This document shows positions 1,240 through 21,823 of a stretch of 64,000 nucleotides of DNA, piece after piece (position 1 is the first letter of the stretch; each line of letters opens with the position of its first letter). Below the pieces are notes generated by a model. It was not told the DNA's origin. It worked only from the letters and a program-made list of their open reading frames with translations, and ran no database searches. The DNA comes from a virus, in the IMG/VR virus record IMGVR_UViG_3300023223_001973, positions 1 to 64,000 of that record; one strand, written 5' to 3'. A program made the translations under genes and the position numbers.

Positions 1240-1992
1240 ATGACGTATACACAGCGGGACCTCGATAAGCTTATGTCTAAGCGTCGGGGTCGGGCAATCG
1301 TCAAGTGTCGTGCTGTCCGCAAGATTGCGGGTGGCCAGCCTGCCGGTGACAAGGCTCTTGCAGCCTTCGTCAAGTATCACCTCGACCTGGATCCGGAAAG
1401 CAACGAAGGTAAGTCCGCTATCGCTCGGATCAAGAACGAGGAGATTGGGGAGAGGGATACCGGTACTCCCGAAGGCGAGCTGGACAACAAGGAAGTGTAT
1501 CAGGTCAACGTCATTCGACGGAATATGAATGGTCCCTTCCTCCTGGAACACCAGATCAAGGCCATGCTGAAGCAGTCTGCCAGCCGCCTTGGCTACTTTG
1601 TCAAGAAGCGTGGCTCCAAGGGTGACATGGCTGAGCTGGGCACAGTCCGCGCTCATGGAACCAGTCTTCAGTTTGCTCTCCGTCCTTGGGAAATTCACTT
1701 GCGCAAGAACGGGCAAAGTGCTCCCACCTCATACGACCAGATCACCGGTTGTGTGAGCACCACTCAGGGCAAGAAGTCCATCATGCACCATACCGAAGTG
1801 GCGGATGAGGGCTCCGAGTTTGCCTTCGAGTTCGACTGGATTCCTGACAAGCTGGGCAAGAATGCCATGCTGGAGATCATTGCTGCTGCCACGCAGATCG
1901 GCATTGGTTCCTGTCAGAGCTTGGGCTACGGGAAGTTCGAGGTCGTGGAGCTGGATATTGACATGCCTGTTAAGGTTAAGAAGGAGGCATAA
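1240..1992 (+). CDS. RAMP/Cas7-like RNA-binding protein (putative)
   Basis: A 250-residue protein. Residues about 221-234 (GIGSCQSLGYGKFE) match the glycine-rich loop near the C-terminus of RAMP-fold CRISPR proteins (Cas5/Cas6/Cas7), typically G-h-G-S-x-x-S-x-G-x-G-x-F. The segment before it alternates strand and helix as in a ferredoxin-like RRM fold, and a GPFLLEHQIKAML stretch in the middle is reminiscent of the Cas7 helix after the first strand. No cas genes or standard CRISPR repeats are near. The gene is followed directly by a 5-nt periodic non-coding array whose first anchor overlaps its last codons, which suggests the array RNA or DNA is its ligand. The motif is seen; the fold and function are inferred. 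A different RRM-like nucleic-acid-binding protein is the main alternative. Confidence 0.55.
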   Translation: MTYTQRDLDKLMSKRRGRAIVKCRAVRKIAGGQPAGDKALAAFVKYHLDLDPESNEGKSAIARIKNEEIGERDTGTPEGELDNKEVYQVNVIRRNMNGPFLLEHQIKAMLKQSASRLGYFVKKRGSKGDMAELGTVRAHGTSLQFALRPWEIHLRKNGQSAPTSYDQITGCVSTTQGKKSIMHHTEVADEGSEFAFEFDWIPDKLGKNAMLEIIAAATQIGIGSCQSLGYGKFEVVELDIDMPVKVKKEA

Positions 1993-2630
1993 CTCGACCT
2001 TACGAAGCACAGCGGCCATGCATCATTCCACCGCGCGAGACGAAGCGGCATTGCGTCACAAGACTTGACATATCATGACGAAGAGGCAAAGCAACATGAT
2101 GCATGGCGTAACTAAGCGGCATGACAGGATGTAACTTAACCCAACGTAGAGGCTTAACCAGTCCAAGCTGGTCGGTACTGAACTAAGCGGCTATACAATG
2201 CACGTCTTTACGAAGCGGCGGGACCAGATAAGTCGTGACACTACCCGACGGAGTGGCAGAGCCTTACTCGACATTACTTTACGGAGTGGCAATGCAAGGC
2301 TGAGCAGTGCCGAGCGGCAGGACATAGCTCTACGCTACCACACGCAGAGGCACTACTGAATCATGCCTGACATTGCTTAACAAAGCGGCAGGACGCTACT
2401 CCACACGACGAAGTGGCATGACGCGACTCCACAGGACATGGCGGCTCGACAAGACCGAGCACTATAAGGCTGAACTGGACGAAACAGAGTGGCCAAGCCT
2501 GATGAATCTGTGCGACACAAAGCGAAGTGGCAAGACGGGATGGTACGCCACCTAACTGAACGCAGCGGCAAGTCAAAACAGGACGATACATTGCTGAGAG
2601 GCGAGACAAAACGGGACATTACGCCGCGGC
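1986..2630 (+). repeat. Non-coding array of 20 degenerate GGC anchors with strict 5-nt periodicity
   Basis: Twenty anchors with consensus ACGAAGYGGCA occur in direct orientation. The distances between successive GGCs are 28, 33, 38, 33, 33, 38, 28, 38, 33, 28, 33, 38, 28, 28, 48, 38, 38, 33 and 28, all equal to 3 modulo 5. Starting at each GGC, the sequence divides into 5-9 pentamers of form N-R-C-N-N (most often N-A-C-N-N), and a trinucleotide (AGN in 17 of 19 cases) precedes the next GGC. By my count 109 of 117 pentamers have C at position 3 and the other 8 have T, and none has C at position 2. The region has no convincing ORF. It begins in the last codons of the RAMP-like gene and ends at promoter Pb. 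Transcript, protein-binding DNA or origin are all possible. Confidence 0.85.
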
Positions 2631-3037: not shown

Positions 3038-3263
3038 TGACCTTCCAACTCTGGCCCTTCCTCAGTGGGAACTGGAGATGCTTGAATTTCAGAAGAAGCT
3101 GAAAAAGGAAATGGATGCTTATTTCCGCTCTAAAATGATAGTTCCTGCTAAATACTTTGGAGGCCCTTATGAAAGTAGTCGATCTGTTAGAACTGATCAA
3201 GGACGTGGACCTGGAGGCAGAGGTCCCGAGCGAGATCATCGACAAACTGACCCAGGTACCTGA
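3021..3263 (+). CDS. Small hypothetical protein overlapping both neighbours
   Basis: An 80-residue ORF starting at ATG 3021 (or 3024), inside the end of the previous gene. Residues about 5-55 look like a genuine helical protein ([21 protein letters not shown]). The C-terminal 30 residues are Gly/Arg-rich and overlap the start of the next gene in another frame, so the protein may be real over its first two-thirds only. No family recognised and the start is uncertain. Confidence 0.45.
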
Positions 3264-3672
3264 TGGCTCACCGCCTCGCCCTGTCCGTGGTAAGCTTCCC
3301 AACCGTCGCAATGGAATAACCCAGAAGGTATCTGTTGCTCAGCAGACAGTCTATCTCCGATCTGGACTGTATGAAGATGGTTCTCTGGGTGAGATATTCA
3401 TTGACATGTCCAGACAGGGTGCTGGTTATCGTTCCATTATGGGCTGCTTTGCTATCGCGGTAAGTCTTGGTTTGCAGCATGGTGTACCGCTTGAACGCTT
3501 TGTTAATGCTTTTGTATGGACAAGATTCGATCCGCAAGGCCAAGTTGCTGGCCATCCTTCTATAAAACACTGTACGTCAGTGGTGGACTATATCTTTAGA
3601 GACTTGGCTTATCACCATCTTGGTGATGAGGATATGGCTAAGTATGATCCTAAGGAGCACTCTTACCTATAA
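3169..3672 (+). CDS. Stand-alone RNR C-terminal (TSCPD/NrdJ-tail-like) domain protein
   Basis: A 167-residue protein; ATG 3169 is chosen because GGAGG lies 5 nt upstream. The central part ([19 protein letters not shown], then the [15 protein letters not shown] and [11 protein letters not shown] regions, then [16 protein letters not shown]) closely follows the C-terminal region of B12-dependent class II ribonucleotide reductases (NrdJ). There it is a domain fused to the catalytic barrel. The catalytic part is absent from this window. It could be a piece of a split reductase, a regulator of the host enzyme, or the free TSCPD-type domain family. Its neighbour is a Cys-rich protein. Confidence 0.75.
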
Positions 3673-4720: not shown

Positions 4721-5070
4721 GGGGGTGAATTGGATTCGACTGGCTGTATGAGCTATCGTGCTGCGTGTCGTGGTTGGTCGGTTGGCCACGTTAAAAGCCG
4801 TCCAAAAGCTTATCTGCGGAATATACCGCACGTCTGCGCTTGGTCTCCGGACCACGTGCCGTCGCTGCCTGAGCGATGTACCCAAGAAGGCACTTCGTCA
4901 AGGTGTCCCGCTGAAGACGGTTTTAGTTGGTGGGAGGACAGGTGGGGAAAGACCCACTGCCGAACCTGCGTCACGAGGGCCGGGCAATAAACGGAAACAG
5001 TGACTATGCATGTAGACGCCGGTAGTTTGGCAGTTCCAGCACGTGGGTTCGACTCCCACCACCTCCACCA
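4721..5070 (+). ncRNA. ssrA: Phage-encoded tmRNA (one-piece)
   Basis: Transfer-messenger RNA rescues stalled ribosomes by adding a degradation tag. The 5' end GGGGGTG (4721-4727) pairs with CACCTCC (5060-5066), including the G·U at pair 3 that marks alanine acceptors. The 5' segment GGATTCGAC matches bacterial tmRNAs, the T arm is at 5043-5059 (GTGGG, TTCGACT, CCCAC), and the 3' ACCA is encoded. Near the 3' part, GACTATGCATGTAGACGCC resembles the E. coli segment before the T arm. A tag ORF starts most plausibly at GCA 4828 and runs to TGA 4870-4872, giving ARLRLVSGPRAVAA, whose AVAA end fits known proteolysis tags. The resume codon is inferred from the ATATACC sequence before GCA and could differ. 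Confidence 0.93.
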
Positions 5071-5175: not shown

Positions 5176-5250
5176 TGACCTGTAGCTCAATGGTAGAGCG
5201 CCTGGCTGTTAACCAGGAAGTTGGAGGTTCGAGCCCTCCCGGGTCAGCCA
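5176..5250 (+). tRNA. tRNA-Asn (GTT)
   Basis: Complete cloverleaf: acceptor TGACCTG (5176-5182) pairs with CGGGTCA (5240-5246), D arm GCTC/GAGC, anticodon stem CCTGG/CCAGG with anticodon GTT in the loop CTGTTAA, T loop TTCGAGC, and an encoded GCCA end. It lies 105 bp after the tmRNA and is probably on the same transcript. It is the only tRNA I find in the window. Confidence 0.95.
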
Positions 5251-10727: not shown

Positions 10728-11384
10728 ATGGAGAAAACTCAGCTTACCCCCCACGAGTTCCAGGCGCTTTATGAGAATGTAAAGTGTCCCGGCGATCCTT
10801 CTCGGTTCAATCATTACGTCCAGTCTGCCTGGATTAAGTTCCAGATCGCTAGACTACTTCAACCTTCTAATATTGTGGAGTTAGGGGTCCGTGCTGGATA
10901 CTCAGCTTGGTCTCTGCATCATGGTTGGCCTATAGCCAACATTATAGCCTATGACAGCTATCAATCTGGCTATCAGGGAACTCAGGGACATGAGCTTGAG
11001 CTACAAGTTCATGCTGAAGAACTGCTTGAGAGGTTAGGAATAGAGCTTAGGATTGAGGATACGCAGAAGCTGAAGTCTATTCCATCTGCTGCTCTGTATC
11101 ATGTTGACGCAGACCATACTTATGAAGGTTGCTATAAGGACATTAAGCTATGCATGAACTCAAATGACGAAGCTGTGATAGTGGTTCATGACAGTAATGC
11201 TGATGCAGTTCATAGCGCAATAAAGGATGTAGTTACTTCAGCTAATCCTAGATGGTTCTGGGATAATATATCAAGTCATTGGGGTGATGCCGTCATCAGT
11301 AGGCGTCTTGAACCCTGGGTAGATAAGGTTAAACCGTTCCCTCCTAAGTTAGTGAAGTCTGACCCTGGCTGGCCCGATGAGTAG
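10728..11384 (+). CDS. Class I methyltransferase (Methyltransf_24-like)
   Basis: A 218-residue protein. Motif I is NIVELGVRAGYSAW, and ALYHVDADHTYEGCYKDIKL is the hallmark of the methyltransferase-24 family often found in glycan and natural-product loci. A VIVVHDSNAD strand follows. It begins 2 bp after the previous methyltransferase and overlaps the next gene by 8 bp. Substrate unknown. Confidence 0.8.
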   Translation: MEKTQLTPHEFQALYENVKCPGDPSRFNHYVQSAWIKFQIARLLQPSNIVELGVRAGYSAWSLHHGWPIANIIAYDSYQSGYQGTQGHELELQVHAEELLERLGIELRIEDTQKLKSIPSAALYHVDADHTYEGCYKDIKLCMNSNDEAVIVVHDSNADAVHSAIKDVVTSANPRWFWDNISSHWGDAVISRRLEPWVDKVKPFPPKLVKSDPGWPDE

Positions 11385-12105
11385 GCTCATTTACTTTGAG
11401 TCCTTCCCACACACTGGGTCCTGGTTCTTGATCAACTTTATCATGTCCCATCCTGAAGTGGGTGGGTTCCTCCCTGCATACCAGCTACCACTCGCCCTAA
11501 TGGGTGTAGATAACCCTCGCAAGGTGCTTGGAGGTCCTAATGATAAACCTCCGATCACTGAACATATGGGGACTGAACATTCTGTAACCTTGGTTCATTC
11601 CCACTGTCAAGGGGCTGATAGCTGTGCTTGGACCTTCCTTAACCTGCATCATGGTGTTCTGGTCTCACTTCGCGACCCATTAATGATCCTTGTTAGCTGG
11701 AAGCAGTCTGTACCCAACTTCAACCAAGGTCAGGTGGCAAGGTACTGGAGACGGTATTGTGCCTGGTACCCTCATCTTGGGAACCTTTGTGATGTAATCT
11801 ACTTTCCTATTGACTGGCTTGCTGGTGAATCTGTTGATACGAGATCATGGTACCTTATCCAGGTGTTGGACTGCTTCGATCTAGAAACTCATACCAACAT
11901 CATACATGAGACTGCTTCCTCTTGGGAGAGGGTGGGAGGTACTGGTGAGGGTTATCGTGCTGAGGCTCAGAAGGCGTATGATGATAGAGATGTGGAGTTC
12001 TTCGAGCGTACTATTCCTGAGGGGTTTAAGGTTCTGCGTGAATCAGAGGATCTTATGAGGCCCTTCCTCGAGCAGTGGTATAAGGACCTGTTATGGTGGT
12101 CATGA
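11377..12105 (+). CDS. Sulfotransferase-like protein 1
   Basis: A 242-residue protein. FPHTGSWFLINF at residues 10-21 fits the PAPS 5'-phosphosulfate-binding loop of sulfotransferases, and SLRDPLMILVSW fits the 3'-phosphate motif (RDP...S). Such enzymes move sulfate from PAPS to hydroxyls of sugars or lipids. The sequence is divergent, so activity is a prediction. The next gene is a second protein of the same type. Overlaps both neighbours. Confidence 0.6.
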   Translation: MSRLIYFESFPHTGSWFLINFIMSHPEVGGFLPAYQLPLALMGVDNPRKVLGGPNDKPPITEHMGTEHSVTLVHSHCQGADSCAWTFLNLHHGVLVSLRDPLMILVSWKQSVPNFNQGQVARYWRRYCAWYPHLGNLCDVIYFPIDWLAGESVDTRSWYLIQVLDCFDLETHTNIIHETASSWERVGGTGEGYRAEAQKAYDDRDVEFFERTIPEGFKVLRESEDLMRPFLEQWYKDLLWWS

Positions 12106-12812
12106 ATGATTCTTCTGTCATATTGGTTTGTACCTCTGGTAGGAGTGGTTCTCTCTATTTGAATGAAGTCTTTAAGCATCATAAGACCGGTGAGCAGGTT
12201 GTTCTCCATGAAGAGGGTGGTCGCCCTCCTTGGCGTGAAGATTTACCTGGACTTGCTGAGTCTGGCAAGGGTCTAATTCTGACTGGTCGCAATGCTATTG
12301 CTAGTTTAGGAGTGGAGTTGGCCCCTTATACACCTAAAGTTCTACACTTAGTGAGGAATGTACATGATGTCTGTATGAGCTGGTATGAGAGGATTCCTCA
12401 AGATCATTATAATCCTGAGCATGTTGCAGGGTTTTGGCCGTATGGTAACTCTTTTTCTCATTTAGATCGTAGGTGGTCTGAGTATCAGACCTATATATGG
12501 CATTGGTTCAGTACTTACTATGCTGGATTAAGTCTGTATCCTGTGCATACAACTCGTCAGTTGTATTTCCCTGATCTAAATGATGTTGATGCTATGAATG
12601 CTATATTGGATTGGTTAGGTATGATGGAGTTGTGTAATTCTAAGTCTTTAGAGCAGTGCCTTGGTGCTAAGAATTCTAGGATTAAGCATCGGTCTGGATC
12701 TCATATTGATACTGAACATGAGATGCACGAATGGCTTGATACTATGAGTGACCGTTCTAAAGAAAAAGTAAGAACAGTGGCTCGGAGTTTGGGAGAGGGG
12801 TACTCAATATGA
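12102..12812 (+). CDS. Sulfotransferase-like protein 2
   Basis: ATG 12102 is chosen for its ATGA overlap with the upstream stop; an in-frame ATG at 12093 adds three residues. CTSGRSGSLYLNEVF (residues 10-24) is a good PAPS-loop motif (SGRSGS), and HLVRNVHDVCMSW is the matching RN...S motif. A stretch of AT-richer codons around 12.4-12.7 kb differs from the preceding genes. Its substrate is unknown. With the previous gene it forms a tandem pair. Confidence 0.65.
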   Translation: MNDSSVILVCTSGRSGSLYLNEVFKHHKTGEQVVLHEEGGRPPWREDLPGLAESGKGLILTGRNAIASLGVELAPYTPKVLHLVRNVHDVCMSWYERIPQDHYNPEHVAGFWPYGNSFSHLDRRWSEYQTYIWHWFSTYYAGLSLYPVHTTRQLYFPDLNDVDAMNAILDWLGMMELCNSKSLEQCLGAKNSRIKHRSGSHIDTEHEMHEWLDTMSDRSKEKVRTVARSLGEGYSI

Positions 12813-13999
12813 AGGTCTTGATGTCCTGTCGACAGCACCCCAAGCACCTGTGTGGTGGTCTATCCATTGCTTCCTGGAATACAGCTAAGGCTGCTCGTGA
12901 TGCTGGTCATGATGTGACCTTCCTTACCGCTGAACATCCTAGTCAACCTGATCTTGCCGAAACAGAAGAGGATGGTATTAAGGTTTCCTGGGTGCAAGGT
13001 ATGTTCCATGACTCCACCGGTTATCCTGATCTATATAAGTGCCTACGTGCCCATAAGGAATGGGTCATGGGGTTCGACATTCTGCATAGCCAGTCATCTG
13101 CACTGACTCCTTGCCTAGAGTGGGGCAAGCCCATCATCTTCCAAGACCATGGAACAATGCTAGCTGCCATGCAGGATGATATGAACATGCATGCCTTTGG
13201 CATGGAGAAGAAGTTTGGCATTGCACTTGGTACCTCCTGGAAGACCGATGTAGCCTACAACAAGATGTATGACGAGTTTACCCTCTGTATTGAGGGTCAG
13301 CGTGAGATGGATTATCTTCGTAAGTTCACTCAGGTGTGGGCTACATCTGCTATCTCTGCTGAGGATCTAGTAACTCGGTACTTTCTATGTAATGTAAGGT
13401 TGTTCTATCACTCCATCTATGATCTTGTGTATCCAGGTCCTCGTGAGGCTGCTTCCACACCTGTGGTAGGGTTCTTCGCACTGGAGTTGGATGCTCCTCA
13501 GAAGTATGCCAAGCTAGGTCTCAGTCAGCTGTTGCCCATTAAGGACCAGATCTCTATCAAGTTGGTCGGGAATGGACCTGTGACAGTGGCCTGGGCGAAG
13601 GAACACTTCCCTCGTGTAGAGTATACGGGATACCTTCAAGAGTCTGATGCCTTCCAAGCTCTATGTTCAGTGGATGTCCTGTTTGAGTGCTCATGCCACC
13701 ATCGTGGTCTGAACCTTGCAGGGATTACTGCAATGGGCTTGGGTATCCCTGTTATAGCCTACCCAACTGGTGGTCACCCTGATATGATTGGAGAGGAAGC
13801 TCTATATAATATATATGGACCTGGTGGGGCACTGGTTGATCCGTTTGATGATCAGATGGCGTGCGAGGCAGTCAGGAATATTACTATTAACAGGTCTGTT
13901 CGTAGTGTGAAGGCCCGCTTACAGTTTGAGAGCAAGTTCCTTCCAAAGATCGTATCCAAGCGATTGGATGAACTGTATGCAGAGATTCTTTCCGGGTAA
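12809..13999 (+). CDS. GT4-type (GT-B) glycosyltransferase
   Basis: A 396-residue protein starting at an ATG overlapping the upstream TGA. N-terminal GGLSIASWNTAKAARDAGHDVTFLT is the GT-B acceptor-domain start. The C-terminal half has the donor-domain pattern KLVGNGP, VEYTGYL, a FECSCHHRGLNLAGITAMGLGIPVIA stretch and PTGGHPDMI with the glutamate-bearing loop. It likely adds one sugar of the glycan made by this locus. Confidence 0.85.
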   Translation: MKVLMSCRQHPKHLCGGLSIASWNTAKAARDAGHDVTFLTAEHPSQPDLAETEEDGIKVSWVQGMFHDSTGYPDLYKCLRAHKEWVMGFDILHSQSSALTPCLEWGKPIIFQDHGTMLAAMQDDMNMHAFGMEKKFGIALGTSWKTDVAYNKMYDEFTLCIEGQREMDYLRKFTQVWATSAISAEDLVTRYFLCNVRLFYHSIYDLVYPGPREAASTPVVGFFALELDAPQKYAKLGLSQLLPIKDQISIKLVGNGPVTVAWAKEHFPRVEYTGYLQESDAFQALCSVDVLFECSCHHRGLNLAGITAMGLGIPVIAYPTGGHPDMIGEEALYNIYGPGGALVDPFDDQMACEAVRNITINRSVRSVKARLQFESKFLPKIVSKRLDELYAEILSG

Positions 14000-15008
14000 C
14001 CCCACAGGAAACCCCGTTCCAATCCACAAGATTAAGGGCTTTCCTCCTGAGGCATGGGACCCTTTCAAGTATAATGAGCTTGCTTTTGTGAAGGGTCCTG
14101 TTAGGGTGCTTCCCTATCAGAAGATGGTCTTGAATCCTGAGAAGAGAGCCCGCAAGGCCATAATGCTCAAGTACTGGGGTGCTGTTGGGGACTTTTACTA
14201 CTTCCTGACCTTTGCAAACTACGTACTGAAGAAGTATTCTACCCGCAAGATTGTCCTAGCTGCTGATACCTACAGCCGGTATCAAGGCCATCCCATAGTG
14301 GAGCTATGTCAGCACAATGGTTTGATTGATGAGCTGTGGCTTCATCGGAGGAAGACGGGTGGCCCTAATACCTTCCCTTCCGAGTTCTATGCTCAGGCTG
14401 AACTTGATTCTCCTAATGTCATGTTATTCCATGTTGGAATTTACTATCCTCAGTGCCTTGTAGGTCCTGGTGTAAAAGAGTGGCCTCTGCGTCAGATGCG
14501 TCAAGCTTGTGAGAAGGAGCGTTTCCTAATCCATATTCTCTCCGAGAAAGAGCTTAGAAGGATGTATCCTCAGTTACCAGAGAAGTATGTGACATTCCAT
14601 CCTAGGACCTTTGGTAAGAATTATAAGAACGAAGTTCCCATGACGGCTATTAATGCTGTGGCCCATCTTCAAATCCCTATTGTTGTGCTCCAGTTTCAGG
14701 GTGAGAACCATGCCAAGCTGTTTGAAGAGATTCCTAATGTACATGTCTTCCATATAAATGATACTCCTACCTCTATCTGGGTGCAGTATTACGCCCAGTT
14801 TCATGTTGGCCTTGAGAGTAGCCCGCTTCTAGCTGCGGTTATTCATAAGGTCCATGCCTACTATTTCCCCTTCTCTGGCATCTCTATGTTCAAGCGTGAT
14901 CTTGGCATTGAGCCCTATTGTCATGAGTTGGATTGGGATGCCACGGCTGAAGATCTCCACAAGACCTTCAAGACTGCTCTTAAACGTAGGATTATCCCAC
15001 GCGTATAG
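13968..15008 (+). CDS. GT9-like glycosyltransferase
   Basis: Start taken as ATG 13968 (13977 equally possible), overlapping the previous gene by about 30 bp; the frame is open further back. Residues about 50-85 carry AIMLKYWGAVGDFYYFLTFA, the G-x-x-GD pattern at the start of heptosyltransferase-like (GT9) enzymes, and the C-terminal half has a VTFHPRTFGKNY segment and FHVGLESSPLLAAVIHKV in the donor domain. Function inferred from fold and context. Confidence 0.6.
   Translation: MNCMQRFFPGNPTGNPVPIHKIKGFPPEAWDPFKYNELAFVKGPVRVLPYQKMVLNPEKRARKAIMLKYWGAVGDFYYFLTFANYVLKKYSTRKIVLAADTYSRYQGHPIVELCQHNGLIDELWLHRRKTGGPNTFPSEFYAQAELDSPNVMLFHVGIYYPQCLVGPGVKEWPLRQMRQACEKERFLIHILSEKELRRMYPQLPEKYVTFHPRTFGKNYKNEVPMTAINAVAHLQIPIVVLQFQGENHAKLFEEIPNVHVFHINDTPTSIWVQYYAQFHVGLESSPLLAAVIHKVHAYYFPFSGISMFKRDLGIEPYCHELDWDATAEDLHKTFKTALKRRIIPRV
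14981..15005 (+). promoter_or_regulatory. ECF-type promoter variant (TAAAC-N16-CGTA)
   Basis: TAAAC at 14981-14985, a 16-nt spacer and CGTA at 15002-15005, one mismatch from consensus. It lies at the very end of the glycosyltransferase gene and 23 bp before the ATG at 15028. Spacing to the gene is like the other promoters. Confidence 0.5.
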
Positions 15009-18301: not shown

Positions 18302-18910
18302 ATGAAGGACGAGATAGTCTCCCTAGAGGAGGCATATGAGATAGCCGCACAGCTTTGTCCCTCCATCATGAAGAAGTTGGAAATACCTTCCAACAAGATA
18401 TCCGAAGAAGATGTCATAGGACAGTTTATTACGAACTTTATTGAGAAGGGTTTTCTCAATAAGTTCAACCCCCGCGTTACTTCCTTCCGGTATTATGTCT
18501 ACATGGGCGTACGCAACGCCGCAGTCTCCATGATCCGACATCTCAAGTATGAGGTCACTTCACTGGATGCGATTACCCGTCCAGACCCTGATGGCAAGGT
18601 CTTGGACATTCCTGCACCAGAGCCTGTTCAAGAGATGATCATGAAAGGTCTGCTTGAGGAGGTTTGGGACTTCTCTTTCGGGTACGGCAAGATTGCCAAG
18701 TTGTATGGAGCTGAGGAAGACCTGATTGCCGAGTTACCATCCACTGCCCGCTCTGTTCTACAGATGCTGTTCATGAAATACAGCAAGGACGAAGTTGCCG
18801 CCTTCTTTGGGGTTACTGTCTCGACCATCAATAACGTGATCAGTAGCGTCAGAGATCAGGTTAAGGCGCGAAAGATAACACCGCAGGATTGCCTGTTATC
18901 TGCCTTTTGA
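18302..18910 (+). CDS. ECF-like RNA polymerase sigma factor 1
   Basis: A 202-residue protein. Residues about 34-82 (SEEDVIGQFITNF, FNPRVTSFRYYVYMGVRNAAVSMIRH) match region 2 of ECF sigma factors, where the F-x-P-x-x-x-S-F-x-x-Y/W motif and following helix bind the -10 element and core polymerase. Residues about 145-190 (LPSTARSVLQMLF, then a helix-turn-helix DEVAAFFGVTVSTINNV) fit region 4, which reads the -35 box. It is paralogous to the sigma at 19343. The TGAAC/CGTA promoters around it are the ECF type, so they are the obvious targets. No anti-sigma factor is recognised. ATG 18302 is chosen over the open frame back to 18248, which runs through the promoter. Confidence 0.85.
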   Translation: MKDEIVSLEEAYEIAAQLCPSIMKKLEIPSNKISEEDVIGQFITNFIEKGFLNKFNPRVTSFRYYVYMGVRNAAVSMIRHLKYEVTSLDAITRPDPDGKVLDIPAPEPVQEMIMKGLLEEVWDFSFGYGKIAKLYGAEEDLIAELPSTARSVLQMLFMKYSKDEVAAFFGVTVSTINNVISSVRDQVKARKITPQDCLLSAF

Positions 18911-18932
18911 ACCTAAGCCCTTCCTTAACGTA
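18908..18932 (+). promoter_or_regulatory. ECF-type promoter Pd (TGAAC-N16-CGTA)
   Basis: Exact match, TGAAC 18908-18912 and CGTA 18929-18932. The TGA is the stop codon of sigma factor 1. It reads into the 105-residue gene and then sigma factor 2, a potential feed-forward circuit. Confidence 0.75.
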
Positions 18933-20980: not shown

Positions 20981-21022
20981 CTCCAGAGTCACTTTGGGAT
21001 CTTTACGGTGAAGGAGAGGACG

Positions 21023-21823
21023 ATGAATCAAGCTGACTATAGCCGTCAGTCTGACCTTGTGAACATGGCTGTCTTGCAGGGCCTCCGTGCCACGGTTATC
21101 GGTGCTGGAGCTGTGGGCTCTTACTCTGCACTGGCGTTGGCCAAGATGGGGTTGGGCACCATTGAAGTCTATGATGACGACGTTGTGGCCCCGCACAACC
21201 TGCCAAACCAGTTCTTCCGCAACTCTGACACGGGCAAGCTGAAGGTGGATGCCCTTGCAGAAATTCTGGCTGACTTCACGGATGCTACGGTAGAGCCCCA
21301 TGCTGATCTATACAACGATCAGGAGTTGTATCCTGTGGTGATCGTGGCTGTTGACTCTATGGCTGCTCGCCGGGTGGTCTGGGAGCAGTTCAAGGGTTCC
21401 AATGCTCAGGTCTACATTGAGGCCCGCATGGGCGGTCAGCTCGGTGCTGTTTATACCATCCGCAAGGCTCAAGGTGTCTTGTCTGAGGAAGACAAGCTCT
21501 GGTATGAGCAGTATCTGTATGATGACAGTGAAGCCGACCCTGTGCGGTGTACCGAGAAGTCCATCATTTACAACGTGCAGATGATATCTTCTCTGATCTG
21601 CCGTGCTCTCCGTGCTGTGATCATGCGCGAGGAAGGGTACCCGAAGGAGTTTGTCTTCGACATGCACCACATGCAGACGTACTCGCAGGAGACCCTTGTT
21701 GAGGAAGAGCTGGTAGAGATTGAGGCTGACGTTGAGGACATCTTCGATGAAGATGAGGACGAGAATGACCTGGATGATGAGTTCGGTGAAGAGGACGAGA
21801 TTGAGTATGAGGTCATTACCTGA
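21023..21823 (+). CDS. E1-like (ThiF-family) ubiquitin-activating enzyme
   Basis: ATG 21023 is chosen for its AAGGAGAGG site. 266 residues. ATP-binding loop GAGAVGS (27-33), acidic VYDDDVV (49-55), then HNLPNQFFR with the conserved Arg 66 and GKLKVDAL with Lys 74 are E1 superfamily features. Cys176 in RCTEKSIIY is a plausible catalytic Cys. It would adenylate the C-terminal glycine of the Ubl encoded downstream. The last 40 residues are extremely acidic (Glu/Asp), an unusual tail that may dock the Lys-rich Ubl. Confidence 0.88.
   Translation: MNQADYSRQSDLVNMAVLQGLRATVIGAGAVGSYSALALAKMGLGTIEVYDDDVVAPHNLPNQFFRNSDTGKLKVDALAEILADFTDATVEPHADLYNDQELYPVVIVAVDSMAARRVVWEQFKGSNAQVYIEARMGGQLGAVYTIRKAQGVLSEEDKLWYEQYLYDDSEADPVRCTEKSIIYNVQMISSLICRALRAVIMREEGYPKEFVFDMHHMQTYSQETLVEEELVEIEADVEDIFDEDEDENDLDDEFGEEDEIEYEVIT

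Follow-up and report, generated by a model that had tools for sequence, protein, structure and literature searches.

A Tail-Less, Phase-Slipped Pentamer Array beside a Predicted Cas7-Like RAMP Gene: A Probable Divergent VIPR-Type System in a Phage Genome

The window, a 64,000-nt stretch of viral DNA (IMG/VR record IMGVR_UViG_3300023223_001973, positions 1–64,000), contains a gene for a predicted Cas7-like RAMP protein adjoined by an array of tandem pentamers, which very probably serves a phage-encoded VIPR-type system as its guide-RNA array. By its protein and its array the window is a VIPR system of a divergent kind, with short, tail-less, phase-slipped units and a relaxed N-R-Y/NN pentamer that has three variable positions. 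VIPR (Viral Interference Programmable Repeat) systems, as described in an April 2026 preprint (PMC13142463; bioRxiv 2026.04.26.720920), combine a phage RAMP protein with pentamer guide RNAs of the GGY/NN form. These guides consist of 9–16 YNNGG repeats and a 3′ tail, and the system reads double-stranded DNA (NN is read and one base is skipped) and acts against competing phages. Seven types are distinguished there, some with staggered arrays (overlapping vrRNAs), hammerhead arrays or one guide (PMC13142463). CRISPR effectors have been proposed to descend from VIPR. The original prediction held that no described element has this grammar; it is outdated, because that preprint describes GGY/NN pentamer guide RNAs.

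Organization of the Pentamer Array

The array occupies positions 1986–2644 of the plus strand and is non-coding. It has 20 GGC anchors, at 1986, 2014, 2047, 2085, 2118, 2151, 2189, 2217, 2255, 2288, 2316, 2349, 2387, 2415, 2443, 2491, 2529, 2567, 2600, and 2628, which delimit 19 complete units. Each of the 19 anchor-to-anchor distances is 28, 33, 38, or 48 nt, and all 19 equal 3 modulo 5, as first claimed. A unit comprises 5–9 pentamers of the form N-R-Y-N-N and a 3-nt NRY without NN. The first unit (1986–2013; plus strand) consists of GGCAT, AACTC, GACCT, TACGA, and AGCAC followed by AGC, and overlaps the last codon and the stop codon of the RAMP gene, so that gene and array are probably co-transcribed. 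The longest unit has nine pentamers (48 nt; 2443–2490; plus strand), and the array ends with the final anchor and three trailing pentamers (2628–2644; plus strand).

In the 18 units from 2014 onward, pentamer position 3 is a pyrimidine in 112 of 112 cases (C in 104) and position 2 is a purine in 105 of 112. The unit at 1986, read directly from the sequence, contributes five more pentamers, and C then occupies position 3 in 109 of 117, which reproduces the earlier count, including the pyrimidine in every case. The entropies of positions 1–5 of inner pentamers are 1.88, 1.21, 0.49, 1.95, and 1.98 bits, respectively; positions 4 and 5 are near the maximum, and position 1 shows little constraint beyond a preference for G. 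The 3-nt slip before the anchor is AGC in seven, AGT in five, AGA in four, GGC in one, and CGC in one of the 18 units. Because AGY accounts for 12/18, AGA for 4/18, and GGC or CGC for 2/18, the slip is best read as an extra N-R-Y triplet minus the variable pair, and the unit as NRY(NN NRY)n, after which the next unit begins.

The array is a real, non-chance feature. Sequence identity at lags of 5, 10, and 15 nt is 0.39, 0.36, and 0.35, against about 0.21, and the 5-nt phase (observed 1.10) lies far above that of 2000 dinucleotide-preserving shuffles (maximum 0.89; z = 10.3). The autocorrelation at lags 5 and 10 thus bears out the periodicity originally described, and such phase coherence is not common for this composition. 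Elsewhere in the 99.7-kb record, no 5-nt phase comes near the array's value. The array has no match in Rfam, its RNA fold is not beyond chance (z = −0.84), and it contains no identical direct repeats of at least 20 nt, only diverged fragments around the anchor.

The RAMP Gene and Its Neighbors

The vipr-like gene at 1240–1992 (plus strand) is predicted to encode a 250-aa Cas7-type RAMP protein with a single RRM core and a C-terminal glycine-rich loop (G-loop; GIGSCQSLGYGKF). Searches with Pfam, PHROGs, and PADLOC yield sub-threshold traces only (Cas6/Cas7/Csm4; the Pfam trace is Cas6_C), and the protein was aligned with 36 relatives. The AlphaFold2 model is fairly confident (pLDDT 81, pTM 0.75), and the PDB matches listed for it by Foldseek are all CRISPR RAMP structures (best E = 4e-8), from Cmr-beta, type VII Cas7, Csm complexes, and Cas7-11. 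Matches by PDB fold and by sequence are alike CRISPR RAMPs (e.g., Cas7, Csm3, and Csm4).

An 84-aa ORF just upstream (956–1210; plus strand) is a possible accessory (vap) gene and has no family match in Pfam, PHROGs, or PADLOC. The ORF, the RAMP gene, and the array are bracketed by a 29-nt direct repeat, the left copy of which (890–918; plus strand) is 83% identical to the right (2632–2660; plus strand); a weaker copy lies at 18909–18932. The repeats may function as promoters or terminators, or may mark a cassette. The window also encodes a phage tmRNA at 4721–5070 (Rfam RF00023, 108.7 bits), with a tRNA downstream (5176–5247), and a 171-aa protein (3157–3672) in which Pfam recognizes a TSCPD domain (E = 1e-8) and which resembles a stretch from the C-terminal region of the large subunits of ribonucleotide reductase. 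At 21008–21823, a ThiF/E1-like adenylyltransferase motif (IGAGAVGS), judged by eye, is possibly part of a ubiquitin-like module.

Relatives with the Same Grammar and a Distant Sister Clade

IMG/VR was scanned with the array grammar only and no protein information (AGNGGC, five RC steps, AGNGGC, and one more RC), which carries out the suggested search of phage genomes with AGNGGC anchors. Four contigs matched: L239, L240, and L241 twice each and L242 once. In all three two-match contigs a RAMP gene adjoins the array, and the proteins are homologous to the window RAMP (35–42% identity; E = 2e-37, 6e-53, and 5e-47 for L239, L240, and L241, respectively); the units are all 5n+3 with AGC|GGC boundaries. 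The scan is therefore an independent test in which the array predicts the RAMP protein. The single match in L242, with spacings of 38, 41, and 33 nt and no RAMP gene on the 5.4-kb contig, is either due to chance or located on a contig severed from its gene. In a 108-kb phage contig (L239; L249, reverse strand, 11136–14698), the RAMP gene is flanked on either side by pentamer arrays, with at least 27 units. Unit duplication with divergence is seen in L241, where one unit (1390) recurs in the adjacent one (1443) with changes confined to positions 1, 4, and 5. An integrase-like gene (judged by eye from the sequence) follows in L240 and L241, which suggests that these are temperate phages.

Scanning viral sequences directly with the RAMP of the window returned nothing, and neither did its alignment with one distant relative. 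The entry point was a human gut phage (L002), the RAMP of which is 26% identical to that of the window (E = 0.3) and the RAMP gene of which is directly adjoined by a non-coding stretch with a 5-nt phase. The L002 RAMP retrieved 57 IMG/VR loci, and an alignment search yielded 40 further RAMP loci in bacterial contigs, mostly of Clostridia from rumen, rabbit, and deer gut. These relatives form a distant sister clade of about 100 loci, mostly in phages and Clostridia contigs, and the RAMP–array pairing is present in nearly every locus. A cyclic HMM of five states that allows phase jumps detected a significant pentamer array beside the RAMP gene in all 57 viral loci except L013, in which the contig ends right after the gene, and in 38 of the 39 bacterial loci tested (the exception being L177). 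In almost all viral loci, no other stretch has a stronger 5-nt phase than the array. Loss of the 5-nt phase in related phages would have spoken against the original prediction; the relatives retain it.

The sister-clade grammar is n-G-(C/T/A)-N-N, with units mostly of 5n+1 and a GCAAA|GGC boundary, and one locus (L053) has about 54 phase runs within 1.66 kb. By hhalign, the sister-clade RAMPs are homologs of those of the window type (97%, E = 9e-11). Protein and array are tightly paired in many unrelated contigs. Unit sequences are almost never common to different loci, and no conserved companion gene was found in the sister clade.

Proposed Function as a Guide-RNA Array

The RAMP gene (1240–1992) and the array are probably transcribed together, and RAMP subunits would then cover the array RNA, one per pentamer, each holding N-R-Y and exposing the variable bases. 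At the AGY|GGC slip, two triplets would abut without a variable pair, marking where one guide stops and another begins. Because the slip marks guide ends in this way, each 28–48-nt unit would be one guide of 5–9 pentamers, a proposal of the present analysis. The guides would direct the RAMP to the DNA of competing phages or mobile elements, leading to repression or block. RNA binding, DNA recognition, and repression by the window RAMP are thus postulated by analogy with the proteins of PMC13142463.

The original idea that a protein subunit grips two bases and exposes three is near this model: the neighboring gene encodes a predicted Cas7-like RAMP, and VIPR proteins are reported to hold the fixed part of the pentamer while the variable part reads the target (PMC13142463). 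Statistics hint only weakly that all three free bases are read; in the published code, two are read and one is skipped. Positions 1 and 4, between which lies the fixed dinucleotide, show an association that is partly like that of adjacent bases in natural DNA. For all pentamers the linkage reaches z = 2.6, whereas full templating would give about 5 with as few as 2100 pairs; an effect of half that prediction or less is suggestive only. In comparisons of near-identical arrays, position 1 is substituted as often as positions 4 and 5. This behavior, together with the partial association, makes a contiguous three-base code possible. Tentatively, all three variable positions might be read, with bases 4, 5, and the next 1 spelling a contiguous target at 3 nt per subunit. 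On that conjecture, the base skipped in the published code would be read as well, and the R-Y dinucleotide of the RNA that the subunit holds would be looped out. A code that reads all three positions would differ from the published one, and if the reading is contiguous, the arrays would be CRISPR-like libraries of 20–54 short contiguous guides that are ended by a phase slip, not by a repeat.

For target searches, units were decoded under skips of 0–4 or contiguously, with position-preserving shuffles as controls. No targets were found in the phage's own genome (skip rules and contiguous decoding), in 2.64 Mb of related phage contigs (skips 0–4 and three-base words), in the four window-type phages, in IMG/VR by exact patterns, or in a phage collection by contiguous decoding. 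The genomes of 397 relatives gave three matches, and a backwards control had at least as many. These null results do not contradict targeting, because the pools were small or the searches exact-only. Under contiguous decoding, one unit (L237:3489–3534) matches 21 nt within the gene for the small terminase in MT836569.1, a sequence from the same faecal study; as a target it is a weak lead only (E = 5, repetitive, mismatches at both ends).

Alternative Explanations

Within the same system, the guide might be longer than a single unit: consecutive units could make overlapping (staggered) guides, with the slip inside. Staggered arrays with overlapping vrRNAs are mentioned in PMC13142463, and published guides have 9–16 repeats, vs. 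5–9 in single window units. However, the unit boundaries, AGY|GGC in the window group and GCAAA|GGC in the sister clade, vary much less than the sequence inside the units, which is what an end or a processing mark would be expected to show, and matching within units should still have revealed targets. Staggering of this kind is a possible, somewhat doubtful account of the unit.

The array could instead yield a RAMP-coated packaging, scaffold, or regulatory RNA with no target information in the free positions (e.g., a sponge or decoy against CRISPR or another VIPR), which would agree with the lack of targets found and of a conserved companion gene in the sister clade. Such a role is unlikely: a coat has no need of near-maximum entropy at variable positions or of units almost never shared between loci, and the published VIPR RNAs of the same kind are guides. 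The 5-nt spacing had earlier brought TRAP to mind, but TRAP-like or other regulator-binding sites for neighboring genes are a very improbable explanation, given that the triplets are N-R-Y and not (G/U)AG, a poor fit, and that the array is about 650 nt long, has phase slips, and tracks the RAMP gene. A degenerate, functionless simple-sequence repeat, to which the local duplication in L241 would be congenial, can be practically dismissed in view of the 19 spacings that are all 3 modulo 5, the conserved pairing with one protein family, and the roughly threefold fewer substitutions at position 2 between near-identical arrays (5/508, vs. 14–16 of about 455 at other positions).

Comparison with Known Systems

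The reading as a VIPR-type guide array can be set against the published systems feature by feature. As in VIPR, the window has a small phage RAMP with a single RRM core and G-loop, and the adjacent non-coding RNA consists of tandem pentamers, each a held triplet and a variable pair, of a consensus (N-R-Y/NN) related to GGY/NN; the array flanks the vipr-like gene in phage genomes, and the unit-initial triplet GGC equals the published GGY. Sequence homology to the Vipr of SUSP1 is weak. A profile of the window and sister-clade RAMPs matches it with E = 2.4e-5 (probability 76%), mainly via the G-loop, whereas the window-group profile alone is not significant against the SUSP1 group (E = 0.036; small alignments). 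The SUSP1 RAMP is about 16% identical to the window RAMP, with the G-loop aligned. YNNGG tracts are visible at SUSP1/Medea1 loci (L062 and L258), SUSP1 included. Gordonia phage Pipp gp42 (L259:1222–1845) has a weak match to SUSP1 Vipr (E = 3e-4) and no 5-nt phase in the 115-nt upstream gap.

Compared with published VIPR, the window differs in that the internal triplet has the looser form N-R-Y, in which position 1 is under little constraint; units have 5–9 pentamers and no 3′ tail (published guides have 9–16); successive units directly adjoin each other, offset by a constant phase slip (5n+3 in the window, 5n+1 in the sister clade); and arrays have about 20 to 54 units in the window and sister clade. 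SUSP1/Medea1 (VIPR type II) share the two-part layout of the window, but their guides are discrete, about 100 nt long, and carry structured tails; the 9–16 repeats and structured 3′ tail of type II are absent from the window array. The window branch therefore differs from type II and may equal another of the seven types, perhaps that with staggered arrays. TRAP binding sites share only the 5-nt spacing and have other triplets, a short site, and another protein.

The class 1 CRISPR-Cas backbone (Cas7/Csm3/Cmr4) shares with the window the RAMP fold, the glycine-rich loop, and a multi-unit array beside the gene. The window differs in having no identical direct repeats, a step of 5 nt (6 nt in CRISPR), and one RAMP gene. 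A DNA pattern is enough to locate the array grammar, a simple route to more such systems, and the window branch allows comparison of how a RAMP sets the length and ends of guides. With its dozens of units, slips of 1 or 3 nt, and neither repeats nor tails, this branch would fit naturally as an intermediate form linking single vrRNAs to CRISPR arrays.
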